From: a virus
Length of the DNA stretch: 29,288 nucleotides
Strand: one strand, 5' to 3'
IMG/VR virus record: IMGVR_UViG_3300032093_000619
Location: 1-29,288 of that record
Made by a program: the position numbers and the translations under genes. The notes under the pieces are model-generated. The model had not been told where the DNA came from, searched no databases, and worked only from the letters and a program-made list of their open reading frames with translations. Shown here in pieces: positions 3,548-28,954 of this stretch (position 1 is the stretch's first letter; each line of letters begins with the position of its first letter).

Positions 3548-4477
3548 ATGGCTATCTCTCGTGCACAGCTACTTAAGGAACTCCTCCCCGGCCTGAACGC
3601 TCTGTTCGGTATGGAGTACGCTCGCTACGGCGAAGAGCACAAAGAAATCTACGAAATCGAAAAGTCTGAGCGTTCCTTTGAAGAGGAAACCAAGCTGGCC
3701 GGTTTCGGTGCTGCACCCGTCAAGAACGAAGGCTCTGCCATCGCTTACGACAACGCGCAGGAAGCTTTCACTGCTCGCTACACCCACGAAACCATCGCCC
3801 TTGGCTTCTCGATCACCGAGGAAGCTGTGGAAGACAACCTGTACGACAGTCTGTCTGCCCGCTACACCAAGGCTCTGGCTCGTGGTATGTCCTACACCAA
3901 GCAGGTCAAGGGCGCTGCCGTCCTGAACAACGGCTTCAGCCAGAACTACCTCGGTGGTGACGGCGTGTCCCTGTTCGGCGTGAACAGCTCCGGCACCCGT
4001 GTTGGTCACCCGCTGGTTGGCGGCGGCCAGAACTACAACAGCCCGACCACTGGCGTCGATCTGAACGAAACCTCGCTGGAAAACGCCACGATTCAAATCG
4101 CTGCGTGGACCGATGAGCGTGGACTGCTGATCGCTGCCAAGCCGGTCAAGCTGGTGATTCCGCCGAGCCTGATGTTCGTTGCCAAGCGTCTGCTGGACAC
4201 CGAACTGCGTGTTTCTACTGCTGACAACGACATCAACGCTATCAAGCAACTGGGCACCATCTCTGGCGGCTACACCGTCAACCACTTCTTGACCGACACG
4301 AACGCTTGGTTCCTGACCACGGACGTTCCCAACGGCATGAAGATGTTCGAGCGTGCAGCGCTGACCACCTCTATGGACGGCGACTTCGACACCGGCAACG
4401 TCCGCTACAAGGCCCGCGAGCGTTATTCGTTCGGCTGGTCTGATCCCCTCGGCATGTGGGGTTCTTCTGGTTCTTAA
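3548..4477 (+). CDS. Major capsid protein
   Basis: 309 residues with an AAGGAG site 8 bases before the ATG. Features that fit an HK97-fold coat protein, and resemble from memory the Mu gpT-type group, are the acidic N-arm region (EEHKEIYEIEKSERSFEEET), the helical ALARGMSYTKQVKGAAVLNN segment, and a C-terminal KMFERAALTTSMDGDFDTGN followed by VRYKARERYSFGW. It sits after scaffold- and decoration-like genes and directly before a strong terminator, the usual position for the most highly expressed late gene. It would form the icosahedral shell and is the likely substrate of the GroEL/GroES-like pair. Confidence 0.85.
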   Translation: MAISRAQLLKELLPGLNALFGMEYARYGEEHKEIYEIEKSERSFEEETKLAGFGAAPVKNEGSAIAYDNAQEAFTARYTHETIALGFSITEEAVEDNLYDSLSARYTKALARGMSYTKQVKGAAVLNNGFSQNYLGGDGVSLFGVNSSGTRVGHPLVGGGQNYNSPTTGVDLNETSLENATIQIAAWTDERGLLIAAKPVKLVIPPSLMFVAKRLLDTELRVSTADNDINAIKQLGTISGGYTVNHFLTDTNAWFLTTDVPNGMKMFERAALTTSMDGDFDTGNVRYKARERYSFGWSDPLGMWGSSGS

Positions 4478-5176: not shown

Positions 5177-5467
5177 ATGACGATGCAATATGACGTTAAG
5201 TCAACCCATAGAAACTCCTCGGGGTCCATTTTTGGCTCCCGGGCGCGTATCAAGGGGTTTTCTATCTGCGCGACTGCCAGCCTAGCTGGCTCGTTGTTGC
5301 TGAAGGACGGCGGTTCCGGCGGGACCACGGTGATTGAAGTTGACATCCCATCTAACTCCAACCCGAACTCGTTTTATATTTTGGTGCCGGGTGAGGGGGT
5401 GCTGTGCTCGACTGACATCTACGCATCGCTGACGAACATCGCCAGCGTCACGGTGTTCTATGGCTAA
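5177..5467 (+). CDS. Conserved small structural-like protein
   Basis: 96 residues. The stretch MQYDVKSTHRNSSGSIFGSR and the later ARIKGFSICATASLAGSLLL followed by KDGGSGG look like a small beta-sandwich protein that I recall as a conserved hypothetical next to the capsid-associated genes in uncultured phages. Two in-frame ATGs (5177 and 5183) are both possible starts; the ribosome site is weak. Its stop overlaps the next gene by 8 bases. Function unknown; a minor virion component is plausible. Confidence 0.5.
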   Translation: MTMQYDVKSTHRNSSGSIFGSRARIKGFSICATASLAGSLLLKDGGSGGTTVIEVDIPSNSNPNSFYILVPGEGVLCSTDIYASLTNIASVTVFYG

Positions 5468-5714
5468 GACCGCAGCATGGACTCGCAAGGAAGGCAAGAA
5501 CCCCAAAGGCGGCCTGAACGCCAAGGGACGAGCCTCCTACAACGCAGCCAATCCGGGCAAGCCCGGCTTAAAGGCCCCTCAACCAGAGGGCGGCAAACGC
5601 CGCGACTCTTTCTGTGCCCGGATGACTGGCATGAAGAAAAAGCTGACCTCGGCCAAGACCGCGAACGACCCCAATAGCCGGATCAACAAGAGCCTTCGGG
5701 CTTGGAAATGCTGA
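5460..5714 (+). CDS. Small basic conserved protein (possibly DUF6321-like)
   Basis: 84 residues, strongly basic. The sequence RKEGKNPKGGLNAKGRASYN, then KPGLKAPQPEGGKRRDSFCA and a C-terminal NKSLRAWKC, is a family I have seen in many phage genomes and connect, from memory and unverified, with DUF6321. Two cysteines (in DSFCARM and the final WKC) could bind metal or form a disulfide. It overlaps the previous gene by 8 bases. The charge suggests nucleic-acid contact, but the function is unknown. Confidence 0.6.
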   Translation: MAKTAAWTRKEGKNPKGGLNAKGRASYNAANPGKPGLKAPQPEGGKRRDSFCARMTGMKKKLTSAKTANDPNSRINKSLRAWKC

Positions 5715-5715
5715 C

Positions 5716-5919
5716 ATGACTGAGAAAACAGAAACCGTTAAAAACGTTCTGGACTTCGTGGCCGTGTTCACGGCGATTGGCTCGTTCTTGCAGATTCTTA
5801 CCCCGGTGTTTGGTCTGATCGGCGCTATCGTGGGGGTCATGCGCATCTACGAGATGGCGACCGGGAAAGAGTTTTCTACGCTTTGGCGCAAGAAGGCTGC
5901 TGATGCCGAGCACGAGTAA
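5716..5919 (+). CDS. Small membrane protein, holin-like candidate
   Basis: 67 residues with a hydrophobic stretch at residues ~12-43 (DFVAVFTAIGSFLQILTPVF, then GLIGAIVGVM) that can form one long or two short membrane helices, a charged N-terminus and a charged C-terminal tail (KEFSTLWRKKAADAEHE). Size and layout suit a small holin or an inner-membrane protein. The window has a better holin at 20944, so this may be an accessory holin or unrelated to lysis. It overlaps the next gene by 17 bases. Confidence 0.45.
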   Translation: MTEKTETVKNVLDFVAVFTAIGSFLQILTPVFGLIGAIVGVMRIYEMATGKEFSTLWRKKAADAEHE

Positions 5920-6250
5920 GAAGCAGCACAACTTTATGGCTGCGGTGGCTAACAGCCCCGCGTTTGCCAAGAAGGCCGGAGTCCCCGCGAGCGTGGGGAA
6001 AGACTTCATCAACGCGGACAAGGGCCGCAAATTTAAAGAAGGTGGTGACACTATGGCTTCCAAAATGAATGCGGGCTTTATGGCGATGATGGCTAAGAAA
6101 AAAGGCATGCCCGCCAAGAAAATGGCTTCTGGTGGAATGACCAAGATGGGCGCTGTGAAGACCGCCGCCCCCAGCAAAGACGGTATCGCGTCCAAAGGCA
6201 AAACCAAGGGCAAGATGGTCAAGATGGCCTACGGTGGCAAATCCTGCTAA
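5903..6250 (+). CDS. Small basic Lys/Gly/Met-rich protein with TKGKMV tail
   Basis: 115 residues, very basic. Its N-terminus, KKQHNFMAAVANSPAFAKK and GVPASVGKDFINADKG, is a familiar unnamed phage family. The C-terminal half is low-complexity (many Met, Lys, Gly) and has KEGG, MASGG and MAYGG motifs. Residues 91-106 (SKDGIASKGKTKGKMV) align with the tail shared by the next three genes, here followed by nine extra residues ending KSC. The start lies 17 bases inside the previous gene. Possible roles, all inferred, include DNA compaction or cargo packed in the head. Confidence 0.6.
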   Translation: MPSTSKKQHNFMAAVANSPAFAKKAGVPASVGKDFINADKGRKFKEGGDTMASKMNAGFMAMMAKKKGMPAKKMASGGMTKMGAVKTAAPSKDGIASKGKTKGKMVKMAYGGKSC

Positions 6251-6258
6251 GGACTACC

Positions 6259-6456
6259 ATGTACGACGAACTTCAAGCCAAGAAGAAGCCTCGGGGCCTC
6301 AAGGGCGGCGTCTATACGGAGGATTCTGGCCTCCCGCCCCCGCAGGATATTGACGGCGGCTCTGCCCCCCGCAAGCCCAAACCTATGGCCAAAGGCGGCG
6401 TTACCCGTGCAGACGGATGCATTGTTAAAGGTCACACCAAAGGTCGGATGGTCTAA
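6259..6456 (+). CDS. Small protein with RADGC...TKGRMV tail
   Basis: 65 residues with an AAGGA site. The N-terminal 42 residues (LKGGVYTEDSGLPPPQD, Pro- and Gly-rich) are unlike the neighbours. Residues 43-65 begin MAKGG and end RADGCIVKGHTKGRMV, the tail repeated in the genes at 6459 and 6662. No domain or membrane segment is visible. The next gene starts two bases after its stop. Function unknown. Confidence 0.55.
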   Translation: MYDELQAKKKPRGLKGGVYTEDSGLPPPQDIDGGSAPRKPKPMAKGGVTRADGCIVKGHTKGRMV

Positions 6457-6458
6457 AA

Positions 6459-6662
6459 ATGGCCGAGATGTTGACGACCAAAAAGATGTATGAGCAGCTC
6501 ACTACTGAGCCAGCAAAAGCATCGATGGCGCACACCACCAAGGCTATGAACATGGCGAGCAAGATGGGCAAGCCGCCCGAAGAGAAGAAGATGGCCAAGG
6601 GTGGCTGCTGCCGTGGCGACGGCATCGCTCAGCGGGGCAAGACGAAAGGCAGGATGGTGTAA
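6459..6662 (+). CDS. Small protein with GDGI...TKGRMV tail
   Basis: 67 residues. The first 44 look helical (MLTTKKMYEQLTTEPAKAS) and Met/Lys-rich. Residues 45-67 begin MAKGG and continue CCRGDGIAQRGKTKGRMV, the same tail as the genes on both sides but with adjacent cysteines. The stop overlaps the next start (TAATG). I do not recognise the N-terminal part; tight coupling and the shared tail argue that it is expressed. Confidence 0.55.
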   Translation: MAEMLTTKKMYEQLTTEPAKASMAHTTKAMNMASKMGKPPEEKKMAKGGCCRGDGIAQRGKTKGRMV

Positions 6663-7021
6663 TGGCTAAAGGCAGGAAAACAGCGGCTATGCTTGGGCTT
6701 CTTGGCGCAGGCGCACTTGCAGCTAAACAGATTCCGTACTTAGGAAGAGTTGACCTCGACGCCGGCCCCAAAGCAACAAGGCCCGAGCTTGAGAATAGGA
6801 TGCCTGAGTACCCGGTTGTATCTGAGGAAGATCGAACAGCCGCCCGCAAGCGAGTTTATGCCACTGAGCCCAGCCTTCGTGGCACGCTCAGGACTGAAGA
6901 CTACCGACCAATCCTTTCAGGCACGGGCCTTCCTATTAAGACTGGTGGGATGAAAAAAGGCGGTGTCACCCGTGCAGACGGGTGCATCACCAAGGGCCAC
7001 ACCAAAGGCAGACTCGTATGA
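6662..7021 (+). CDS. Protein with RADGC...TKGRLV tail
   Basis: 119 residues. An N-terminal hydrophobic stretch (AAMLGLLGAGALAAKQI, residues ~8-24) could be a short membrane anchor. A polar middle (PELENRMPEYPVVSEEDRTA) follows. Residues 97-119 start MKKGG and end RADGCITKGHTKGRLV, nearly identical to the tail of the 6259 gene. It overlaps the previous gene as TAATG and the next as ATGA. This is the longest clear member of the tail-sharing set. Function unknown. Confidence 0.55.
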   Translation: MAKGRKTAAMLGLLGAGALAAKQIPYLGRVDLDAGPKATRPELENRMPEYPVVSEEDRTAARKRVYATEPSLRGTLRTEDYRPILSGTGLPIKTGGMKKGGVTRADGCITKGHTKGRLV

Positions 7022-7295: not shown

Positions 7296-7529
7296 GTGAA
7301 GGCCCCGCAGCAATCGCTCAAGGACTGGACCGCCCAGAAGTGGAGGACTAAAAGTGGCAAACGCTCTTCTGACACAGGTGAACGGTATCTTCCGGAGGCT
7401 GCTATTAAAAGTCTCACTCCGTCTGAATACGCTGCTACAACCCGGGCCAAAAGAGCGGGTAAAGCCGCCGGAAAACAATTCGTAAAGCAACCACCTAAAG
7501 TGGCAGCAAAAACGGCGAGGCATCGATAA
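7296..7529 (+). CDS. Small basic conserved protein
   Basis: 77 residues from a GTG at 7296, three bases after the previous stop. The segment LKDWTAQKWRTKSGKRSS, followed by TGERYLPEAAIKSLTPSEY and AATTRAKRAGK, is another familiar unnamed phage family of basic proteins. There is no Cys and no membrane segment. The stop overlaps the next gene as TAATG. No in-frame ATG lies near the start, which favours the GTG. Confidence 0.6.
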   Translation: MKAPQQSLKDWTAQKWRTKSGKRSSDTGERYLPEAAIKSLTPSEYAATTRAKRAGKAAGKQFVKQPPKVAAKTARHR

Positions 7530-8227
7530 TGGCAACCTCTGGGACCTCAAGCTTTAACCTCGACCTCTCCGAGATCGTTGAAGAGGCGTTTGAGCGCTGT
7601 GGCTCAGAACTGCGCACGGGCTATGATCTGAAGACGGCGCGTCGGTCTTTGAACCTGATGTTCGCTGACTGGGCCAACCGTGGCATCAACATGTGGACGT
7701 TTGAGCAGGGCACGCAGACCCTGACTCCGGGGGTGGCTACCTACACCCTGCCTGCCGACACGGTTGATCTTCTTGAACACGTCATCCGTACCGGTGCTGG
7801 GAATGCCGCCACGCAGGCAGACCTGACGATCACGCGTATCAGTGTTTCTACCTACGCCACCATCCCCAACAAGCTCCAACAAGGCCGCCCCATCCAGATT
7901 TGGATCGAGCGTCTGAACACCCCGCAGTTCACTGTCTGGCCGGTGCCGGACAGCTCTCAGACCTACCAGCTCGTCTACTGGCGGCTGCGCCGCATCCAAG
8001 ACGCGGGTAACGGCACCAACACCATGGACATGCCGTTCCGGTTCATCCCATGCATGGTGGCGGGTCTGGCCTACTATTTGTCGATGAAGGTCACGGGGGC
8101 CGAGGCGCGCATGCCCGTGCTGAAGCAGCAATACGACGAAGCGTGGGCGCTGGCCGCTGAGGAAGACCGGGAAAAGGCCGCTGTGCGGTTCGTCCCGCGC
8201 CGGCAGTACTTGGGTAGCGGCACCTAA
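7529..8227 (+). CDS. Head-tail connector / adaptor-like protein
   Basis: 232 residues. The N-terminus (LDLSEIVEEAFERCGSELRT, then GYDLKTARRSLNLMFADWAN) is a helical domain followed by a beta-rich middle (TLTPGVATYTLPADTVDLLE) and a helical C-terminus (DMPFRFIPCMVAGLAYYLSM). I know this arrangement from phage proteins compared with T7 tail tubular protein A and P22 gp4, which form the ring under the portal and recruit the tail hub. It starts in a TAATG overlap and its stop overlaps the next start. The precise subfamily is uncertain because a second adaptor-like gene lies at 9028. Confidence 0.6.
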   Translation: MATSGTSSFNLDLSEIVEEAFERCGSELRTGYDLKTARRSLNLMFADWANRGINMWTFEQGTQTLTPGVATYTLPADTVDLLEHVIRTGAGNAATQADLTITRISVSTYATIPNKLQQGRPIQIWIERLNTPQFTVWPVPDSSQTYQLVYWRLRRIQDAGNGTNTMDMPFRFIPCMVAGLAYYLSMKVTGAEARMPVLKQQYDEAWALAAEEDREKAAVRFVPRRQYLGSGT

Positions 8228-8626: not shown

Positions 8627-8821
8627 ATGGACAAGAAAGATTTGGCACAGGACAAAAAGACGGCGGCAAAGGCTGTGCATATGCACGAGAAAACTCTGCA
8701 CCCCGGCAAGCCTCTGACCAAAATGAAGGCTGGTGGCAAGACCAACGCCGACATGCTCAAGTACGGGCGCAACATGGCTAAGGTCATGAACCAGCGTAGC
8801 TCTGGTCGCAAGGGAGGCTGA
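8627..8821 (+). CDS. Small Lys-rich protein
   Basis: 64 residues from the ATG at 8627, preceded by AAGGAG at a spacing of about 6; the in-frame upstream start at 8603 lies inside the previous gene and lacks such a site. The protein is Lys/Ala-rich and helical (KDLAQDKKTAAKAVHMHE), has MKAGGKTNADMLKYG at residue 33, and ends RSSGRKGG. It resembles the small basic proteins at 5903-7293 in style. Function unknown. Confidence 0.5.
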   Translation: MDKKDLAQDKKTAAKAVHMHEKTLHPGKPLTKMKAGGKTNADMLKYGRNMAKVMNQRSSGRKGG

Positions 8822-8822
8822 T

Positions 8823-9020
8823 ATGGCAACGTACAAACAACCCACTAAGGTCGCAACTCCGGTTGTCGGTCAGATGCCGGTGAAGGAAGCTTTGAAGGCA
8901 AACGTCTCCGTTGCCAACGAGCGCACGAACGAATACGACGGGGTAAAGACCTCGGGCATCAAGATTCGTGGCACTGGCGCGGCTACCAAGGGCGTGATGG
9001 CCCGTGGGCCCATGGCTTGA
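8823..9020 (+). CDS. Small conserved protein, TSGIKIRGTGAATKG family
   Basis: 65 residues beginning one base after the previous stop. The C-terminal stretch KTSGIKIRGTGAATKGVMAR is a sequence I recall from many phage genomes without a named function. The N-terminal half is polar (ATYKQPTKVATPVVGQMPV). The protein is small and basic and ends in GPMA. Its tail has TKG, like the tail-sharing genes, but no full match to them. Confidence 0.55.
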   Translation: MATYKQPTKVATPVVGQMPVKEALKANVSVANERTNEYDGVKTSGIKIRGTGAATKGVMARGPMA

Positions 9021-10941: not shown

Positions 10942-13900
10942 ATGGCTGATCGTTACTGGGTAGGTGGCACGGGGACGTGGAACACCACCAGCACAACAAA
11001 CTGGTCCGCATCAACTGGCGGAGCTAGTGGCGCATCTGTCCCCACCGTAGCGGACAGCGTCTTCTTTGATCAGGCAGGCACTTATACCGTTACGGTGAAC
11101 GGAGCCTTGGCGTGTTTGGATATCACGGTATCAGCAGGAACTGTTACATTTTCTAGCGCCGGGCTTCCTGGTCTTACAGTTGCCGGATCGATGAGTTTGC
11201 TTGCTACCACTACATGGAGCGCTCAAACTACATTTACATTTACCGCCACTACTACCGGAAAAACTGTAACAGCCAGCAATCCATTTTCTGCTTCAGCCTT
11301 TAACTTTAACGGTGTTGGCGGTGGATGGACACTTGGCAGCGCAATATCGACTGGTGGTGGAACGTTTGTTGTAACGGCGGGTAGCGTTGATTCTGCAAAT
11401 TACAGTATTACCTGCAATCAATTAGGTTTTTCAGGATCATCAGTTCGATCTTTAATTCTTGGATCAAGTACGGTTACGGTAACCGGAACTCAAGTAAATG
11501 TAATCATCGCTGGAACGATAACAAACCTAACTTTTAATGCCGGAACTAGCCAAATTAATCTTACAAGTGGCTTGCTCTCAGGGATTTCTTCGGGCGGGCT
11601 GACTTTTTATAATATTGCATTTACCGGAACAACTGCCGGAACGCACGCCATTACTGGCAGTAACACGTTCAACAACCTTGCATTCACCGCCCCTTCCGCC
11701 GCAGGTTTGTCCCTAGTAACATTTAACGCGCAGCAGACCATCAACGGCACCCTGTCCACCACGGGCACGGCGGGCAACCGGCGGGTGTTCTTTTCCTCCG
11801 CCACCTACGGCATCTCTGTTGACCTAGTAGTCAACTCTGCCCCCAGCCTGACAGACGCAGACTTCCGGGGTCTCTATGTCAGGGGCACATCGGCCCCCAT
11901 CAGCGGCACACGAATCGGCAACCGTGGCGAGTGCAGGGGCATCACGTTCAGCACGCCAAAGACGGTGTACTTCAACGGATCGGGCGCTGGGCTTAACTGG
12001 AGTGGTAATTCATGGGCTTTATCTTCTGGTGGCGCAGTCAGTACAGATAACGTGCCTTTGGCGCAAGATACGGCCATCATAAACAACTCTTCAGTATTTA
12101 CGCAGTTGGTCTTAGATACTGCCGTATTGGCGCTCCCGACAATTGATTTTTCTACTAGAACCAATGCGTTGAGTGTTACGGGAACTGCGGCAAATACAAT
12201 TTACGGTTCTTGGACTAATGGGTCTGGCATAACTGTAACGATGGCAACAATACTTATCTTTCAGGGTGGAGCAACCCAAACCATCACCAGCGCAGGTAAA
12301 ACATTTTCTGGCCCCATCACCGTCGACACCTACGGCGGCACAGTACAGCTTGCTGATGCGTTGAACCTTACGGGGCAGACCTTTACGGTTACAAACGGGA
12401 CGTTTAGTACGGCAGGCTTTGCAGTAACTGCTGGTATATTTTCGTCCAGCAACAGCAACGTAAGGACTATTAACCTTGGCGCAAGTGCTATAGTTTTGTC
12501 AACCACAAGTGCTCCTGTTGTTTTTACCACCGTAACTAATTTAACTTTTAATGCCGGAACATCTACTGTTACTGTTAGTTTTAACGCTGGCGGAAACCAA
12601 ACTTACAATTGGGGTCAAATAACTTGGTACAATGTAATATACGTAAATCCATCCTCATTTTCTTATATATTCGGCCAAGCAACAACTTTCAATAACTTAA
12701 CATTTCCTACGCAGAGTTCGCTTGTACTGACAAATAATATTACAGTTAATGGCACATTAACATGTAGTGGAGCATCTGCGTCTTCAAGAAACAGCATAGT
12801 ATCCAATACTCTTGGCACTCAACGCACACTCTCAGTCAACAGCCTCTCTGCCACTGACTGCGACTTCCGAGACATTAATCTTGCTGGCACTGCTGCGGGG
12901 TCTTCGCCAACTCGTGCGGGCAATCTCGGTGGTAATACAAATATCAACTTCCCCGCAGCCAAGACGGTTTACTGGAACCTAGCGGGCACGCAAAACTGGA
13001 CAGCCAATGCATGGGCTGCATCATCGGGGGGCTCACCTGCCGTCAACAATTTTCCGCTGGCGCAGGATACGGCAGTGTTTGATAACGCCGGTGCTGCGGG
13101 CACGATAACATTTAACGGTTCTTTGCCAAATATTGATGCGTCGGGCAGGACAACCGCCGTCACGTTTACCACTAGTATATTTAGCTTCAATATCTATGGC
13201 GATCTAAAACTTGGAACAGGTGTAACTTCTTCCAGTGCATCTGGCGCACTTGTTTTTGCTAAAGACGGCTCTCAGACAATCACCAGCAACGGCGTTCAGT
13301 TTGGCTGCAACGTCACCATCAACCGCCCATCCGCAACCGTCCAGCTTGCCGATGCGCTATCCCTAAACTCGGCCCGTACCCTGACCCTCACCAGAGGGAC
13401 GTTTGACGCTGTCACCTACAACGTGACTACGGGGTTGTTTGGAAATAGTTCTACCAGCAACACCCTAAGAATGGGGTCCGGCACGTGGACGCTGTCTGGT
13501 ACGGGGACGGTTTGGAGTTGTTCTGTAGCACCCACGATAGTTTGCGGAATATCAACAATTGTTATATCTGATACGTCCACAACTGCCAGAGCTTTTGATG
13601 GCGGCAACCTGTACTACAACAAGCTGACCGTTGGTGGTGCGACGGGGACATCTACGCTAACGATTACTGGATCGAACACATTTGGTGAACTAGCTTCTAC
13701 CAAGACGGTGGCCCATACCATCACACTGCCGTCTAGCACAACAACAACGGTTGGAAAATGGTCCGTCACGGGCACTGTGGGCAACGTAGTCACACTGGCC
13801 CCATCCACCGCTGTTACCGCGTACACACTCTCCATATCTGGTCCCGCCAACACCGGCATCGACTACTTGTCGATCAGCTACTGCACTGTTGCCACCACCA

Positions 13901-16900
13901 GCCCCGGAGAGTTCTATGTTGGTGTAAACAGCACCAACACCGCTGGCAACACGCGAGTTATCTTCACTGCTACCCCTGCGGCCCGGACACTCTACTGGGT
14001 AGGCGGTACGGGCAACTGGTCTTCTACGACCAAGTGGTCAACATCTTCTGGTGGTGGCTCTGGCGCGGCTATCCCAACATCCCTAGACGCGGTTGTCTTT
14101 GACTCTGCTTCCAACGCCACGGCCTACACAGCCACCATTGACGCAGGCGTGACTCTGGCTCGGTGTGCATCGTTCACCATGGCTGGCCCCGCCGCAGGTA
14201 ACGTGACCTTTGCCGGGACTGTGGGTATCGCCTTCCACGGCAACGTCAGCTTTGCGGCCACCGGTATCACCCGGACATACACGGGCGGTATGCAATGGGC
14301 CGGTAATGCCAGCTACACGTTTACCACGAACGGGTTGACGCTAAACTCTAATTGCACGGTTACGGGTATTGGCGCGACGTGGACGCTTGGCTCGGCCATT
14401 ACAACAGGCTCAAATACAACAATAACATATGGAACTTTTAATACTGCCAATTTTAATTTAACAGGTTCCCTTTTTTCTAGTAATAACGGAAATATAAGGT
14501 CTATAAGTTTGGGGTCCAGCACGATCACAAACAATACCACCACAGCATCGCCTGTCAACCTTACAAATAATACAAACCTTACATTTAATGCTGGCACGTC
14601 AACTTTTTTAGATACAACAAATAAAGGTGGCGCTAATTTTAACGGCGGCGGGTTGACGTTCTATAATGTTTCTTATACTGGGACACTATCTGTTGGTGGG
14701 TCTTTGAATATTATAGGAACCAACACGTTTAATTCACTGTCATTTGCTGGGCAAACGGCTGTTGGTATTTTTACTGTTACGTTTAGTGCCAATCAAACAA
14801 TTACCACCCTGACTTTGAATGCGGGTTTTTCTTCTGCCTGCCGTACATTCCTAGCCTCTGACACAATTGGGACCGCCAGAACCCTAGCAGTCACGACGCT
14901 AACCGCAGGCGCTACGGATGTTGATTTCCGAGACATTACGGTTACTGGCGCGGCGGCCCCCATTTCAGGCACACGGTTTGGCGATGCTAAGGGCAACTCA
15001 GGCATCACGTTCCCGGCAGCGAAGACGGTCTACTGGGCAGTGAACACTGCTAACTGGGGGGCGGGAAGCGCGGGTTCTTGGGCCGCAACATCAGGCGGCG
15101 CTGCCGCGAACGATCAGTTCCCCCTCCCCCAAGACACTGCCTACATCCCGTTTGCCACGCCCACCAGCGGCAGCACCATCACGGTCAACGCCAACTACAA
15201 CATTGGCACGATAGAGATGAGCAACCGTAACGGCAGTGCGCTGGTTACGTTTGCAACGGGCACGACAACGCCTTCGATCTATGGCAACTGGATCAACGGG
15301 ACGGGAACGACGTTGAGCGGTAACGGAACAATGACGTTTGCTGGTCGGGGCAGTCAAACAATTAGAAGCGAAGGGAAGACGTTTACGCAAGGCTTCACAA
15401 TAAATACGCCGGGAGGGTCGGTAACCCTTCAAGATGCCTTTGTCTGTAATTTAAATGCGGCGGGGGCACTAAGTCCTTTGCAGGGTACTTTTGATGCCGC
15501 AACGTATAACGTCACTTTATCAGGGGCGTCATCAGCGGTAAGCGCTTCCGGGACGGGTGTTCGGACGGTGGCTATCGGTTCTGGAACTTGGACTATTGCC
15601 GGAACTACTGGATGGACTGCGGGTACTTCTACCAACCTTACCGTCACAGGTACTGGCACCATCACCATGACCAGCGCCTCCTCCAAAACCTTTAACGGAG
15701 GCGGTATCTCCTACTCCGGCATCACTCTTGATCAAGGCGGCGCGGGCGCATTGAGCATCTCGGGCAACAACACCTTCAAGACAATCACCAACACGTACAG
15801 CGCCACGGGCGCTACGTCTATTTCTCTTGGTGGCACAACAACAACTCTGACCGATCCTTGGACTGCCACGGGCGCAGCCACCCGGGTTCTGACTCTTAGC
15901 GGAACGTCTGCCGCTTCTCCCGCCACTCTGGTTTACACCGGCGCAGGAGTAGCCGCAAACACGGTTGACTACCTTTCCATCAGCAACGTCCGTGCTTACC
16001 CACTTGTTGATGAGTGGTACGCAGGGGCCAACTCCACCAACGGCGGCTCTCTAGGCTGGTACTTCGTTGCCGCAGGCGGCACGGTCTACGCTGCGACCAT
16101 TACTGAGACGGGTACTGGCTCCGACTCTATCCTTGCCCGGGCGATCTTCAACAGCATCATCTCCGAGACCGGCACCGGCACGGACTCCATCAGCGCAAGC
16201 CTTGGAGGGATCACCTACCTCGGCACTATTGAAGAGCTTGCCACTGGCTCTGACGCTGTTCTGGCTCAAGCTATCTTCCGGGCATCGCTGGCTGAGTCTG
16301 GCACAGGCACCGACACCATCTCCGCACGGTCTGCGTTTGGCACTGCGATCCTTGAGTCCGCAACCATTGCCGACACTAACCTTGCCCGGCTGATCGCCCG
16401 CGCTACGCTGTCTGAGACCGCCACTGGGTCTGACACTGAGTCCGCCAGTCTGTCCGCAAACTCTACGCTGGCAGAGACCGCCACAATCACCGACGCGAAT
16501 GTTGGGCGCATCAGCTTCCCTACGGTCATCAGTGAAACGGCCTCTGGCTCCGATACCGACGCAGCCAGCCTAACTATTAATCCTGCGATCTCTGAGACTG
16601 CCACGGGTACGGATGCTGTTTCTGCCCGGGCGATCTTCCTTGCTGCGGTTGCTGAGTCCGGCACGATCACAGACCTGATCTCCGCAATCAAGGGGTACTT
16701 CGTTGCCATCCTTGAGAGCGCTACTGGCACGGACACCTTCTCTGCCAAGTACACCACCCTGCCCAGCGTCTCCGAGACTGCCACCATCACCGACGCCAAC
16801 GTCGGGTTCATCAGTTTTCCCACGACGATTTCCGAGACCGCAACCGGTACGGATACTGACTCCGCCCAGTACATCACCCGGCCCAGCATTGCTGAGTCCG

Positions 16901-18294
16901 CTACTGGCACTGAGACTGTCTCTACCCTCTACAGCACCAACCCCAGCGTTGCCGAGTCTGCTACCGGCACTGAGACTGTCAGCCCGCGCTATATCGCCAA
17001 TCCCAGCATCGTGGAGTCTGCGTCCATCACTGACGCAGTGGCTGCCCGGTACATTGCCCTGCCCAGCATCTTTGAGTCTGCCTCCGGGTCGGACATCATC
17101 GTTGGTGGCCTGCGCTTCATAGGCGTTATTGCAGAGACTGCTACGGGTACTGAGACCGTCGCCGCCCGGTACATCACCAACCCATTCATCGCAGAGACAG
17201 CCACCGGCTCTGACACAGACGCAGCCAGACTGTCTGCCGCAGGGATCATCTCCGAGACCGCAACCGGCACTGAGACCATCACCACCCGGGCCACGTTTAA
17301 ATCAGATATTGCCGAGTACTCATCAGTCGTTGAGATTGTCCGGGCATTCTTCACCGCCGCCGCGCAGGTTAGCGAGCTTGCCACGGGTACTGATCAGGTC
17401 AGCGCCTTGCGTGCGTTGGCTGCGGCGGTTGCTGAGACAGCCACGATCACAGACAGCCTGTCCGCCCGGGCGGTGTTTATCGGGCTTCTCCAAGAGGCAG
17501 CTACAGCCCAAGACGCTGTAAACGCTCCGGGCTCGACCTACAACATCTTGATGCAGGAGCTTGCGCAGGCGCAGGATGCGATTACCACGCAGGCCATCTT
17601 CTTGGCTTCTCTGGCCGAGACCGCCACCGGCACCGAGACCAACAGCGCAGCCTTTATCCCCCGGGCCACGATCACCGAGTCGGCCACCATCACGGATGCA
17701 GTGAGCGCCCTCCAAGCGTTTGCCGCCAGCATTTCCGAGACCTCCGCAGCCTCTGACTCAGTGCTGGTTGCTCCGTCAATCTTCAACGCCATTGCTGTTG
17801 CCTCTGCTACAGCCCTAGACAATTTAAACGCACCGGGCAGCATCTACAACGTCACTATCCCCGAGAGCGCCACCCTGTCCGACAGCGTGATCGGGGCGTT
17901 CCTGTGGAACCTGATTGACGATTCCCAGCCGGAAAGCTGGCAGAACGTGCTGGACGCACAGTCTGTTACTTGGAGCGCCATAAATGCCAGCCAGACTGCG
18001 GGCTGGGGGGAAGTTGATAGTGCGCAGGCTACCTCATGGGGTAACGCAGACTCTGCTCAGGCCCCGGGCTGGCAGGACGTGCAGACCTCCCAAACTGGGA
18101 CTTGGAACTCCGTGGATGACTCCCAGAGCGTTAACTGGCAAAATGTGGTAGATACGCAGTCGGTTAGCTGGAACGACATAAACGCCAGCCAGAATGCCGG
18201 GTGGGGGAACACGGGGAACGCTCAGTCTGGGACATGGAACAACATTGACGACGACCAAGACCCGGACTGGGTAGACATCCCGACATTGAATTAG
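10942..18294 (+). CDS. Giant repetitive fibre/adhesin-like virion protein
   Basis: 2450 residues, by far the largest gene here. Residues ~5-1713 are five ~340-residue beta-solenoid-like modules starting near residues 5, 343, 677, 1018 and 1364, each opening with a YW-type motif (YWVGGTGTW, YFNGSGAGLNW, YWNLAGTQNW, YWVGGTGNW, YWAVNTANW). Residues ~1722-2323 are about 30 copies of a 20-residue repeat (E-T/S-A-T-G-T-D...). Residues 2333-2450 are ten 11-residue repeats with Trp every 11. No catalytic motif, signal peptide or membrane segment is visible. Composition (Thr, Ser, Gly, Asn) and its place between small virion proteins and a tail fibre gene suggest a receptor-binding or surface-exposed fibre. 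There is no obvious separate N-terminal anchor domain. Base composition alternates strongly within modules. A cell-surface adhesin-like origin is possible. Confidence 0.7.
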   Translation: MADRYWVGGTGTWNTTSTTNWSASTGGASGASVPTVADSVFFDQAGTYTVTVNGALACLDITVSAGTVTFSSAGLPGLTVAGSMSLLATTTWSAQTTFTFTATTTGKTVTASNPFSASAFNFNGVGGGWTLGSAISTGGGTFVVTAGSVDSANYSITCNQLGFSGSSVRSLILGSSTVTVTGTQVNVIIAGTITNLTFNAGTSQINLTSGLLSGISSGGLTFYNIAFTGTTAGTHAITGSNTFNNLAFTAPSAAGLSLVTFNAQQTINGTLSTTGTAGNRRVFFSSATYGISVDLVVNSAPSLTDADFRGLYVRGTSAPISGTRIGNRGECRGITFSTPKTVYFNGSGAGLNWSGNSWALSSGGAVSTDNVPLAQDTAIINNSSVFTQLVLDTAVLALPTIDFSTRTNALSVTGTAANTIYGSWTNGSGITVTMATILIFQGGATQTITSAGKTFSGPITVDTYGGTVQLADALNLTGQTFTVTNGTFSTAGFAVTAGIFSSSNSNVRTINLGASAIVLSTTSAPVVFTTVTNLTFNAGTSTVTVSFNAGGNQTYNWGQITWYNVIYVNPSSFSYIFGQATTFNNLTFPTQSSLVLTNNITVNGTLTCSGASASSRNSIVSNTLGTQRTLSVNSLSATDCDFRDINLAGTAAGSSPTRAGNLGGNTNINFPAAKTVYWNLAGTQNWTANAWAASSGGSPAVNNFPLAQDTAVFDNAGAAGTITFNGSLPNIDASGRTTAVTFTTSIFSFNIYGDLKLGTGVTSSSASGALVFAKDGSQTITSNGVQFGCNVTINRPSATVQLADALSLNSARTLTLTRGTFDAVTYNVTTGLFGNSSTSNTLRMGSGTWTLSGTGTVWSCSVAPTIVCGISTIVISDTSTTARAFDGGNLYYNKLTVGGATGTSTLTITGSNTFGELASTKTVAHTITLPSSTTTTVGKWSVTGTVGNVVTLAPSTAVTAYTLSISGPANTGIDYLSISYCTVATTSPGEFYVGVNSTNTAGNTRVIFTATPAARTLYWVGGTGNWSSTTKWSTSSGGGSGAAIPTSLDAVVFDSASNATAYTATIDAGVTLARCASFTMAGPAAGNVTFAGTVGIAFHGNVSFAATGITRTYTGGMQWAGNASYTFTTNGLTLNSNCTVTGIGATWTLGSAITTGSNTTITYGTFNTANFNLTGSLFSSNNGNIRSISLGSSTITNNTTTASPVNLTNNTNLTFNAGTSTFLDTTNKGGANFNGGGLTFYNVSYTGTLSVGGSLNIIGTNTFNSLSFAGQTAVGIFTVTFSANQTITTLTLNAGFSSACRTFLASDTIGTARTLAVTTLTAGATDVDFRDITVTGAAAPISGTRFGDAKGNSGITFPAAKTVYWAVNTANWGAGSAGSWAATSGGAAANDQFPLPQDTAYIPFATPTSGSTITVNANYNIGTIEMSNRNGSALVTFATGTTTPSIYGNWINGTGTTLSGNGTMTFAGRGSQTIRSEGKTFTQGFTINTPGGSVTLQDAFVCNLNAAGALSPLQGTFDAATYNVTLSGASSAVSASGTGVRTVAIGSGTWTIAGTTGWTAGTSTNLTVTGTGTITMTSASSKTFNGGGISYSGITLDQGGAGALSISGNNTFKTITNTYSATGATSISLGGTTTTLTDPWTATGAATRVLTLSGTSAASPATLVYTGAGVAANTVDYLSISNVRAYPLVDEWYAGANSTNGGSLGWYFVAAGGTVYAATITETGTGSDSILARAIFNSIISETGTGTDSISASLGGITYLGTIEELATGSDAVLAQAIFRASLAESGTGTDTISARSAFGTAILESATIADTNLARLIARATLSETATGSDTESASLSANSTLAETATITDANVGRISFPTVISETASGSDTDAASLTINPAISETATGTDAVSARAIFLAAVAESGTITDLISAIKGYFVAILESATGTDTFSAKYTTLPSVSETATITDANVGFISFPTTISETATGTDTDSAQYITRPSIAESATGTETVSTLYSTNPSVAESATGTETVSPRYIANPSIVESASITDAVAARYIALPSIFESASGSDIIVGGLRFIGVIAETATGTETVAARYITNPFIAETATGSDTDAARLSAAGIISETATGTETITTRATFKSDIAEYSSVVEIVRAFFTAAAQVSELATGTDQVSALRALAAAVAETATITDSLSARAVFIGLLQEAATAQDAVNAPGSTYNILMQELAQAQDAITTQAIFLASLAETATGTETNSAAFIPRATITESATITDAVSALQAFAASISETSAASDSVLVAPSIFNAIAVASATALDNLNAPGSIYNVTIPESATLSDSVIGAFLWNLIDDSQPESWQNVLDAQSVTWSAINASQTAGWGEVDSAQATSWGNADSAQAPGWQDVQTSQTGTWNSVDDSQSVNWQNVVDTQSVSWNDINASQNAGWGNTGNAQSGTWNNIDDDQDPDWVDIPTLN
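10954..16080 (+). repeat. Five ~340-residue fibre modules (two blocks, 3+2)
   Basis: Module heads are at nt 10954, 11968, 12970, 13993 and 15031, that is 338, 334, 341 and 346 residues apart. Modules 1 and 4 open with YWVGGTG; 2, 3 and 5 open with KTVY(F/W). Modules 1, 2 and 4 contain NLTFNAGTS and end with a DFR-type stretch (DADFRGL, DCDFRDI, DVDFRDI). Modules 3 and 5 contain GSGTWT and end with DYLSIS and a (F/W)Y-x-G-x-NSTN motif. Confidence 0.8.
16105..17910 (+). repeat. ~30 tandem 60-bp (20-residue) repeats
   Basis: The repeat ESATGTETVSPRYIANPSIV recurs about 30 times, nearly always at exactly 20 residues (three copies are 21-23). E at position 1, A at 3 and D/E at 7 are best kept; positions 11-20 vary. 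Adjacent copies at about 16891-16990 are close to identical in DNA. Confidence 0.85.
17938..18270 (+). repeat. Ten tandem 33-bp (11-residue) Trp/Gln repeats
   Basis: Ten consecutive 11-residue units of the form W-x-x-h-x-x-x-Q-x-x-x, for example WQNVLDAQSVT, WSAINASQTAG and WNDINASQNAG, end in WVDIPTLN at the protein C-terminus. The period is exact. Confidence 0.9.
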
Positions 18295-25761: not shown

Positions 25762-27609
25762 ATGAGCCTAGCCCTTGCCGCTCAACACCTTGCAGCCAAA
25801 GGTCGCCACGGCGACTCCACGCTTGTGCACATGACTCCCGGCGAGGTTGCTGGGCTCCAAGCTTTGGCACGCGCTCATGGTCAAACGCTAACCATCAATC
25901 CCGAGACTGGCCTTCCTGAAGCGTTCAGTCTAAAGTCTTTGCTGCCGATGATTGCTGGCGCGGGTCTGTCGATGATCCCCGGTGTAGGTCCCGTCATGGC
26001 GGCTGGCCTCGTTGGTGGTGGCACTGCGCTGGCTACCGGCAGTTTGCAAAAGGGTCTCATGGCCGGCCTCGGTGCCTATGGTGGCGCGGGTATTGGCGGG
26101 GCTTTGTCGGGTGCTGGCGCAGTTCAAGGTCTGAACGCAGCCAGTGCTGAGGCTGCTGCAGCAGGTCAAGCTGAAGCCGCAAAACAGTTGGCTGACGCCA
26201 ACATGATGGCAAAGTACCAAGCGGCAGGTATTAGCCCGGAGCAAGTTGCTCAAAGTGCTCGTGAGTTTGGTTCAAACCAATTTACCCCTGCTGCGCGTGC
26301 TGCGCTCGTCCCGCCATCTGCTACGTCTAACTTCGACAACATGGTGTCGGGCTTCAAAGGTCTTGGTACTGAGGCTGGCCGCAGCGCAGTGATGGAACAG
26401 ATGGGCGGCCTCAAGGGTTTGGGCAAGTATGGTCTGGCAGCGCTCAGCCCGTTGATGATGTCGCAATCTGAGCAAGCTGCTCAGCGTCCGACAGAGTACC
26501 CACACCGGTTTGAGTTTGACGCTGGTGCTACGGGCGCTATTCAACGTCCGGGGGCCGGCCCGGTCAGCTATTTCAACCCGCGCCTGCGGCAAATGGCTGA
26601 AGGTGGCAGCACCGGCATGACGGGCCAGTCGGATGAGTACTACCGTTACTTGATGGGCCTTGCCCCATCTCCTTCCGCAGCCTATGCCGCACCTGTTGCT
26701 GCCCCCGCTGCGACTCAAGCTGATACTGCCCCTCTGACCGTCACCAATCCTTTGGCTGCACGCCGTGATGTCAATTACTCTGACCCCGGAAGCATGGCGT
26801 TTGACGATCCCAACAACCCGCAGAATCCAAACGCTTGGGGGAACCTAACGCCTCTGGAGCAAGCTCAGTTCTATTCCATGAATTCGGGACTGCAAAAGGC
26901 TTCAGGCTTTTTGCAAGATGCTTTTGGCCGCACCGCCCTTGGAGCTATTCAAAATTATTTTGTTCCGGGGTATGTTCAGCAGCAAAAAGATATTGTTAGT
27001 GGGAAAATGCTAAATGATTACATGCAGCAGTACGACCACTTTGGTAACCCACTGACAATCCCAGATATTGAAGCCGCGATGGCTAACGCCATTGAGGCGC
27101 AATACAATGGCGCGGACAACGATGATGCAGCCATGGGCGCTGCAATTGCAGCGGCAGGCCAGCCCGGCGTGGACATTGGTTCTATAGGCCCTTCAATTGG
27201 CGACGCTGTTGCTGGCATTACTGATGCTGATGTTAGCGCCGCTGCTGACGCTGCCGCCGCCGCCGAAGGCGACGGTCTAGCTCGCGGCGGTCTCTCCTCC
27301 CTCGCCTTTGCCCAAGGCGGCTACAACCTTGGCGACTACTCCGACGGCGGCAGGCTTCTGCGTGGCCCCGGTGATGGTGTGAGTGACTCCATCCCTGCGT
27401 CTATTGCCAACAAGCGCCCCGCCCGGTTGGCTGATGGTGAGTTCGTAGTGCCGGCCCGCATCGTGTCTGAGTTGGGTAACGGCTCTACAGAAGCTGGCGC
27501 TCGGCAACTCTACGCCATGATGGATCGTATTCAGCGTGCCCGTAAGAAGTCTGTCGGTAAAGGTAAGGTCGCCGTTAACTCTCGCGCTAGCAAGCTACTG
27601 CCGGCATGA
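25762..27609 (+). CDS. Internal virion / DNA ejection-type protein
   Basis: 615 residues. Residues 57-122 are Gly/Ala-rich and hydrophobic (LLPMIAGAGLSMIPGVGPVM, AAGLVGGGTAL...), able to enter membranes, as seen in podovirus ejection proteins. A long Ala/Gln-rich helical part follows. The C-terminus (GGRLLRGPGDGVSDSIPASI, RPARLADGEFVVPARIVSE, LGNGSTEAGARQLYAMMD) is a conserved ending I recall from many phages, with unknown role. It carries QMAEGG near residue 278 and FAQGG. It sits at the head of the internal-protein cassette, with an ATGA overlap to the GNAT-like gene. The hydrophobic N-terminus and position support an ejection role. Confidence 0.6.
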   Translation: MSLALAAQHLAAKGRHGDSTLVHMTPGEVAGLQALARAHGQTLTINPETGLPEAFSLKSLLPMIAGAGLSMIPGVGPVMAAGLVGGGTALATGSLQKGLMAGLGAYGGAGIGGALSGAGAVQGLNAASAEAAAAGQAEAAKQLADANMMAKYQAAGISPEQVAQSAREFGSNQFTPAARAALVPPSATSNFDNMVSGFKGLGTEAGRSAVMEQMGGLKGLGKYGLAALSPLMMSQSEQAAQRPTEYPHRFEFDAGATGAIQRPGAGPVSYFNPRLRQMAEGGSTGMTGQSDEYYRYLMGLAPSPSAAYAAPVAAPAATQADTAPLTVTNPLAARRDVNYSDPGSMAFDDPNNPQNPNAWGNLTPLEQAQFYSMNSGLQKASGFLQDAFGRTALGAIQNYFVPGYVQQQKDIVSGKMLNDYMQQYDHFGNPLTIPDIEAAMANAIEAQYNGADNDDAAMGAAIAAAGQPGVDIGSIGPSIGDAVAGITDADVSAAADAAAAAEGDGLARGGLSSLAFAQGGYNLGDYSDGGRLLRGPGDGVSDSIPASIANKRPARLADGEFVVPARIVSELGNGSTEAGARQLYAMMDRIQRARKKSVGKGKVAVNSRASKLLPA

Positions 27610-28034
27610 AAATCAGCGTCGTCCCGATGAGCCAATTACTGGGCGTCGTGTCGGCGCTCAGGCCATATCTTGAAGAGTCGGCAAAATGGTCTCGCGGGCG
27701 CGCTACTCCTGAGGACATCGTCCGGTTCCTGATCAACGGCCAGATGCTCTTGCTTGCGGTGCACAATGATGACTCGGTGTACGGGCATGTGATCTGTGAG
27801 GTCAAGGCGTATCCTCAGTGCAAGATGCTGACTGTTCAGTACTGTGCAGGGGAGCCGCACCACATGGAGTTTGTGGAAGACGAGATGTACGCGTTGCTGG
27901 ACAATCTGGCAACGCAAGCCGGGGCTGCTGGTATTGAGTTTGTGGGCCGTCCCGGCTGGAAAAAGTCTGCGCAGAGCCATGGCTACGAAGTGCAAAGCGT
28001 GACCTACCAAAAGTTTTTTGAGGTGACCAAATGA
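27606..28034 (+). CDS. GNAT-like protein in T7 gp13 position
   Basis: 142 residues. The strand-helix order (LLLAVHNDDSVYGHVICEVK then CKMLTVQYCAG, then MYALLDNLATQAGAAGIEFV and GRPGWKKSAQSHGYEV) resembles GNAT acetyltransferases; RPGW...HGY is the usual late motif. The acetyl-CoA-binding (Q/R)xxGx(G/A) loop is not clear, so it may not be an active enzyme. T7 gp13, of nearly equal length and with a remote GNAT-like fold, lies in the same place before the internal core proteins. Start and stop both overlap neighbours as ATGA. Confidence 0.6.
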   Translation: MKISVVPMSQLLGVVSALRPYLEESAKWSRGRATPEDIVRFLINGQMLLLAVHNDDSVYGHVICEVKAYPQCKMLTVQYCAGEPHHMEFVEDEMYALLDNLATQAGAAGIEFVGRPGWKKSAQSHGYEVQSVTYQKFFEVTK

Positions 28035-28954
28035 TTATTCCGAGCAAACATTGCGGCTATGGCGAAGGCGGTCGCCTCACCAGCACCCGGCGCGTCTATG
28101 ACAGCGGCGGCGGTTCTCAGACTTCAACGCAGATTGCTGATCTTCCCGACTGGGCAAAAGGTACGGCAAAGAACGTGCTTGGTGCCGCAGAGAGTACGGT
28201 TTTCCGAACAGACCCCACCAGCGGCAAGATTTCCGGGTTTCAGCCGTATCAGCGTTATGCTGGAGAGCGCACGGCGCAGTTCACCCCCTTGCAACAGCAA
28301 GCGTACGGTGCCGCGTACAACATGGATGCTGGCCCCCAAGGATTTGCGCAGGACATCGGCCAGTACATGTCGCCGTACCAGCAGAACGTCATTGACCGGG
28401 AGAAAATGGAGGCTGCTCGCACCTCCCAGATGCTAGGTCAGCAACAACAAGCGCAGGCTACCCAAGCAGGTGCGTTTGGCGGCTATCGTGAAGGTATTCA
28501 GCGTGCGGAGCGTGAGCGGGGCCTCCGCTCTCAGATGCAGGACATTCAGGCCCGTGGCTCTCAGGCAGCGTATGACCGCGCTGCGGATCAGTTCCGTCAG
28601 GGTATCAACCAGCAGATGGCTGTGGGTCAGCAGCAGGCGCAGTTTGGTACGCAGCAACAAGGGCAAATTCAAAAAGCGCTGGACACAAACTACCAGAACT
28701 TTTTGGCAGAGCGGCAGTACCCATACCAGCAAGTTGAATTTCTGTCGAACATCCTGCGCGGTACCCCGATGGGCATGACCAACTCGCTCTACGGCGCTAA
28801 CCCCTCTATCGGATCGCAGCTCGCTGGCCTTGGCACTGCTGCGTACGGAGCAAGTAGGCTGGGCATGTTTGCCGAAGGCGGCGAGGTAACCGCTAAACCC
28901 AAAAGCAAGAAGAAAGCCGCCGGCCTTGCCGAGTTGGCTATGACCAAAATTTGA
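28031..28954 (+). CDS. Internal virion protein, Gln-rich (T7 gp14-like position)
   Basis: 307 residues. The core, YMSPYQQNVIDREKMEAART, AFGGYREGIQRAERERGLRS and NYQNFLAERQYPYQQVEFLS, is a helical Gln/Arg-rich family I recall from virion clusters in many uncultured phages. It begins with YGEGGRLTSTR and ends with MFAEGGEVTAKPKSKKKAAG, both with the GG motif, and a basic tail. It follows the GNAT-like gene in ATGA overlap. A role as a core or ejection protein is inferred from order. Confidence 0.6.
   Translation: MIIPSKHCGYGEGGRLTSTRRVYDSGGGSQTSTQIADLPDWAKGTAKNVLGAAESTVFRTDPTSGKISGFQPYQRYAGERTAQFTPLQQQAYGAAYNMDAGPQGFAQDIGQYMSPYQQNVIDREKMEAARTSQMLGQQQQAQATQAGAFGGYREGIQRAERERGLRSQMQDIQARGSQAAYDRAADQFRQGINQQMAVGQQQAQFGTQQQGQIQKALDTNYQNFLAERQYPYQQVEFLSNILRGTPMGMTNSLYGANPSIGSQLAGLGTAAYGASRLGMFAEGGEVTAKPKSKKKAAGLAELAMTKI

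Follow-up and report, generated by a model that had tools for sequence, protein, structure and literature searches.

A conserved C-terminal tail on small, rapidly exchanged proteins of a podovirus-like phage clade: a candidate address tag for head loading

Tail-bearing genes between capsid and adaptor

The window, i.e., the whole stretch of DNA analyzed here, comprises the 29,288 bases of an IMG/VR virus record. Between the genes for the major capsid protein and the adaptor protein (Table 1) it contains a densely packed cassette of small genes, in some of which stop and start codons overlap. Three adjacent genes of this cassette, coding for proteins of 65, 67 and 119 amino acids, carry exact tail termini of 23 residues and end in MAKGGVTRADGCIVKGHTKGRMV, MAKGGCCRGDGIAQRGKTKGRMV and MKKGGVTRADGCITKGHTKGRLV, each followed by the stop codon. 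An earlier note on this DNA had described four genes that end in the same tail, which holds for these three but not for the SKKQ-domain protein encoded upstream of them. The latter ends in PSKDGIASKGKTKGKMVKMAYGGKSC before its stop codon, and its diverged tail core (SKDGIASKGKTKGKMV, at about 6173-6220) is followed by KMAYGGKSC and thus lies nine residues short of the C-terminus, without the KGGxxR spacing. All four proteins match a tail profile, which itself includes the tails of the window (E 1.2e-16, 1.2e-16, 1.7e-13 and 5.1e-7).

The N-terminal parts of the four proteins are unrelated, as the earlier note had proposed: profile-profile comparison with hhalign detected no homology among them (all probabilities 0.2% or less), so that the homology which would have spoken for simple duplication did not emerge. 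The SKKQ N-terminus matches phrog_16759 and two PHROGs named virion structural protein. AlphaFold2 models were of low confidence, with pLDDT values of 57.6 for the 67-residue protein and 60.2, and left the tail unordered. Further downstream, positions 10942-18294 of the window code for a repetitive, Ser/Thr/Gly-rich protein of 2450 residues, which takes up a quarter of the record.

Table 1. Features of the cassette, its borders and proteins with related motifs in the window.
Coordinates	Strand	Feature	Basis
3548..4477	+	major capsid protein; upstream cassette border, clade marker	phrog_371 major head protein, E 6.3e-18
5460..5714	+	DUF6321 protein, untagged in the window	Pfam PF19846, E 1.2e-19
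5903..6250	+	SKKQ-domain protein, diverged non-terminal tail	tail profile, E 5.1e-7
6259..6456	+	65-aa protein, tail 6385-6453	tail terminus and tail profile; homologues in 13 loci
6459..6662	+	67-aa protein, tail 6591-6659	tail terminus and tail profile; homologues in 12 loci
6662..7021	+	119-aa protein, tail 6950-7018	tail terminus and tail profile; homologues in 7 loci
7529..8227	+	adaptor protein; downstream cassette border	homologous to annotated adaptor of Pag-Yong1, DSL-LC04, CRP-901
8627..8821	+	small basic protein with a GG motif; possible partner, or packaged alongside	inference
8823..9020	+	small protein ending ..IRGTGAATKGVMARGPMA	C-terminus like tail core; almost exclusive to tail-bearing genomes
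25762..27609	+	putative internal protein, repeated hydrophobic-A-x-GG motifs	putative role; no PHROG match
28031..28954	+	putative ejection protein, one GG motif	phrog_4287 DNA ejection protein, E 0.001, weak

A peptide under selection on changing N-terminal parts

The consensus of the tail, read to the C-terminus, is S-[KS]-R-[AG]-D-G-[IC]-A-Q-[RK]-G-K-T-[KR]-G-[RK]-[MIF]-[VCIL]. Its conserved part spans about 16 residues, i.e., RxDGIAQRGKTKGR and two mostly hydrophobic positions; the Asp and Gly are invariant, the register to the C-terminus is fixed and the last residues are hydrophobic. The profile match ends at, or no more than two residues from, the C-terminus in 229 of 345 non-redundant ORFs. 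About one third of the tagged proteins have extra residues beyond the tail, which argues against a strict need for a free C-terminus, and many of these extensions, like those of the SKKQ proteins, are some nine residues long and contain a further GG motif. The GG motif that makes up the front half of the tail is defined as a hydrophobic residue followed by [AKRS]-x-GG. The median net charge is +7 for the tail and +5 for the N-terminal parts.

Comparison of orthologues revealed that amino-acid change in the tail is half that of the protein body, while change at synonymous sites is equal (0.45 in the tail and 0.46 in the body). Tail identity is likewise the same within genomes (0.68) and between genomes (0.69). 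Taken together, these values indicate that selection acts on the peptide and not on the DNA, and they point neither to recent duplication nor to a DNA element. Searches of Pfam, PHROGs, NCBIfam and PADLOC gave no hit for the tail; family matches among tail proteins were limited to the SKKQ N-terminus and DUF6321 (of unknown function or named virion proteins), and the peptide did not appear in a limited literature search.

The N-terminal parts are highly diverse: 322 of them fall into about 117 clusters, 77 of which have a single member. A single-linkage cluster of tail-protein homologues (cluster 0) was set aside, as it had been chained by low-complexity sequence. The N-terminal parts are rich in Lys, Ala, Gly and Pro, with a fraction of order-promoting residues of 0.19 compared to 0.34 in the capsid protein. 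Genomes compared at capsid identities of at least 98, 95-98, 90-95 and 85-90% share 89, 60, 14 and 4% of their tagged N-terminal parts, respectively, whereas seven neighboring families remain 91-100% detectable over that range, a contrast that is somewhat inflated since the control families were picked as recognizable and disordered regions are less readily matched. For the same reason, turnover of the N-terminal parts may be overstated. The correlation of their lengths at equal positions, however, drops from 0.82 to 0.38 and 0.08 in the capsid-identity bins of 95-98, 90-95 and 85-90%, indicating that real replacement contributes to the turnover. Tail addition onto a finished domain is seen directly in DUF6321 proteins. 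These usually end in ..SLRAW(K/N)C, and in nine of the 78 listed from the loci selected by DNA pattern this end is followed by a GG motif and then the tail. In these nine, the tail is placed after ..SLRAWNC, the very end seen in the untagged protein of the window.

The proposal of the earlier note that different cargoes bear a common tag, as opposed to being ordinary paralogues, is therefore well supported by the lack of N-terminal homology, the number of N-terminal clusters, the tail on complete DUF6321 domains and the turnover of cargo next to a constant tail. Duplicates whose N-terminal parts had diverged past recognition would fit the tandem layout and the disordered, fast-evolving nature of these parts. 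Yet homology is absent even at the profile level, the length correlation is lost at 85-90% capsid identity, and the tail sits on DUF6321 and SKKQ domains that also occur without it, which makes such paralogy very improbable. The chance that the DNA or RNA is the conserved unit, for example a recombination site or regulatory repeat with the peptide being incidental, is negligible. Tandem repeats at gene ends beside the next start codon would suit such an element, but synonymous sites change as freely in the tail as in the body and the codon agreement among the tails of one genome (0.45) is near the 0.37 expected from codon usage; at their sensitivity, these codon tests refute it.

Distribution in the phage lineage

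A search with the gene of the 67-residue protein identified 461 relatives in viral contigs, and the tail was present in 30 of 30 related records tested, with one to five copies each. A degenerate DNA pattern for [AG]DGIAQRGKTKG, chosen to avoid bias from this query gene and scanned against viral contigs, independently yielded at least 120 stretches in at least 116 loci. The occurrence in all tested records and in these loci indicates that the tail is not a chance product, and bears out the statement in the earlier note that similar tails exist in uncultured phages. Among the 116 loci listed, all but three share neighbors of the head module of the window, and these three are shorter than 1.7 kb. 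The 64 listed loci that span both borders contain 204 of 206 true tails between the capsid or g5177 gene and the adaptor gene, most commonly with three tagged genes per cassette (36 of 64). The ten matches outside the cassette in the same loci comprise two true tails just beyond the adaptor gene and eight weak matches, which belong to the 8627-8821 family and are not tails.

Random occurrence in non-phage proteins, which would have spoken against a phage tag, was not observed: among 84,980 GTDB species genomes, a non-exhaustive search with a single 80-aa query protein matched one short MAG contig. Tail peptides gave no tblastn match to cultured-phage records, where short basic queries are probably filtered or low-scoring, and a cultured carrier was reached via the capsid gene instead. 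This is phage Pag-Yong1, in which UMO75986.1 carries the tail at its C-terminus (E 2.5e-6) in the same cassette. In contrast to the window, Pag-Yong1 has just one tagged protein, and it is basal within the tail-bearing clade. The records Pag-Yong1 (OL906435.1), MinM2 (OQ594354.1) and Pra-JY27 (PP438419.1) bear three host names, have an equal length of 65,014 and give the same capsid match; they may be triplicate deposits of a single phage, possibly a contaminant.

The capsid protein of the window shares 69% identity with its counterpart in Planktothrix phage Pag-Yong1, 62% with that in phage DSL-LC04 and 60% with that in Pelagibacter phage HTVC023P; values are lower still for Roseobacter, Alcaligenes and Caulobacter phages. 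The gene order portal, GroES, scaffold-like, capsid, cassette and adaptor is common to the lineage, which is podovirus-like (short-tailed) and mostly uncultured. The GroES-like co-chaperonin gene (996-1454 in the window) is kept within the head module across the lineage. In the structurally studied cyanophage Pam1, the cement and adaptor genes enclose no others, which leaves nothing to compare with the cassette. Among capsid-selected relatives, a tail was found in 1 of 48 DSL-LC04-like, 0 of 31 HTVC023P-like and 0 of 22 QDWS535-like complete cassettes. A quick version of a capsid tree places 45 of 46 tail-bearing rows in one clade with a support of 100. The lone bearer outside this clade, L291, represents a separate acquisition in the tree, and the near-identical capsid protein of L299, a genome without the tail, makes the tail of L291 look recently acquired. 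This tail, the only one found in the DSL-LC04-like clade, is carried by L291:5678-6049, which ends in RRGDGIAIRGRTKGKLY.

A possible address for head loading

Short tags on diverse proteins are known from other capsids. In phage T4, the tag is N-terminal and is cut off by the gp21 prohead protease. The internal proteins that share this capsid targeting sequence are highly diverse and small (PMC3012670). As with the proteins considered here, only the short tag is conserved, relatives differ by fast change and the genes are encoded by the phage along with head proteins; the tail differs in being C-terminal and of unrelated sequence, and its packaging is a proposal by analogy. The closest C-terminal analogy is the cargo of encapsulins, in which a short, conserved C-terminal targeting peptide with the motif GSLxIGSLK serves an HK97-type shell (PMC10960027). 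That motif is absent from the tail consensus SxRADGIAQRGKTKGRMV, and encapsulin cargo consists of folded enzymes, whereas the shell here is a phage capsid with portal, scaffold-like and adaptor genes. The tail thus belongs to neither type of tag, since its position or its sequence differs.

Likenesses to the tail were also found in other proteins of the window and its relatives. GG motifs number 36 in the family of the putative internal protein (11 homologues), compared to 6.3 in shuffles, and nine compared to 2.8 in that of the putative ejection protein; no enrichment was detected in portal, adaptor, scaffold or capsid proteins. The counts for families g2434 and g5177 were discounted, since the same conserved sites recur from one homologue to the next and thus do not count independently. 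The putative internal protein has a conserved C-terminal part, GPGDGVSDSIPASI..LADGEFVVPARIVSELGNGS, besides several hydrophobic-A-x-GG motifs. The tail core R-G-x-G-x-A-x-[RK]-G recurs seven to eight residues from the end in the 8823-9020 family and in HTVC023P gp32 and gp51, and capsid-selected relatives contain six such C-terminal cores, compared to none in shuffles. The 8627-8821 family was recognized in tail-bearing genomes and in none of the tail-less relatives. The GG-motif and core likenesses, like the SKKQ match to PHROGs named virion structural protein, would link the tail to virion proteins and are suggestive only.

The tail is almost certainly a functional tag, and the data support its reading as a clade-specific C-terminal address on fast-changing cargo, judged from sequence comparison. 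A clade-specific head or virion component would be the favored partner; a processing site is disfavored, given that conservation runs up to the very C-terminus. Among the mechanisms considered, loading of proteins into the virion, by analogy with T4 internal proteins and encapsulin cargo, is the most favored, at about even odds. In this model, the tail would act as a short linear docking motif on small, basic, mostly disordered and rapidly exchanged proteins that would be produced alongside head proteins. During assembly, the conserved end would bind a constant component of the head; candidates include the capsid protein on its inner side, the portal and a small protein packaged along with the cargo (8627-8821 or 8823-9020). 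Binding would enclose the cargo in the head, and it would later exit with the DNA. Loading is suggested by the presence of the tail on unrelated N-terminal parts, its confinement to the head module and the clade, its addition to DUF6321, the selection on the peptide, the equal tail identity within and between genomes and the cargo turnover, and also by the SKKQ match to virion structural PHROGs and the GG motif common to the putative ejection proteins. Confinement to a clade, on the other hand, is equally expected from plain vertical inheritance of the cassette, and the extra residues beyond the tail in about one third of the tagged proteins also weigh against the model.

The main rival holds that the tail is a nucleic-acid-binding peptide, with small basic proteins coating or neutralizing DNA in the head or the cell and no protein partner involved. 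The net charge of tail and N-terminal parts, which counts against loading to the extent that DNA binding explains it too, the RG-rich core and the likewise small and basic neighbors such as DUF6321 all agree with this. We regard it as unlikely, as the invariant Asp and Gly, the fixed register and the hydrophobic last residues exceed the needs of charge and the tail is confined to one capsid clade. The MuA end, recognized in the ClpX-type manner, consists of basic residues followed by two non-polar ones, and the tail similarly runs from basic to hydrophobic, which could make it a localization signal or an end read by such a host factor. A host-cell signal is nonetheless improbable: the approximately 16 conserved residues are longer than known degrons, and other phage lineages or genome regions, in which it would be expected, did not contain the tail. 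Quite improbable, too, is a role of the tagged proteins as minor components of the structure or its assembly, disordered and associated with scaffold or neck, whose tail would serve assembly and not delivery. Their genes adjoin the adaptor gene and they have few order-promoting residues, but replacement between genomes with 90-95% identical capsids is unexpected for such parts.

If the tail is a loading signal, sequence alone would mark the proteins, mostly of unknown function, that are carried or injected by a very common clade, and a small portable peptide would be at hand for steering proteins into the heads of phages. Should DNA binding be its sole role, the tail would still be a module that is specific to the clade, under strong selection and so far undescribed, and a search for its partner is feasible with one cultured carrier. 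It is conceivable, though we would not count on it, that the clade has its own head-loading code, independent of that of T4, which carries changing and possibly counter-defense proteins into the host with the DNA, and that pelagiphages have related codes. The C-termini of HTVC023P gp32 and gp51, IRGVGAAIRGHKFIGVK and SRGGGAAVRGMGFKGVF, share R-G-x-G-x-A-x-R-G seven residues from the end with the tail; they differ from it in lacking D-G-I-A-Q and KTKGR and in the location of their genes elsewhere in the genome. They possibly represent a second, related C-terminal code. The two proteins (L124:5873-6610 and L124:16698-17081) are unrelated to each other and have the same RGxGAAxRG with a seven-residue end. 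In tail-less relatives, a small cassette protein found at many loci (e.g., L123:12016-12243) starts with MAGRGMG(C/A)ATRGGGAV and thus carries the same core at its N-terminus.
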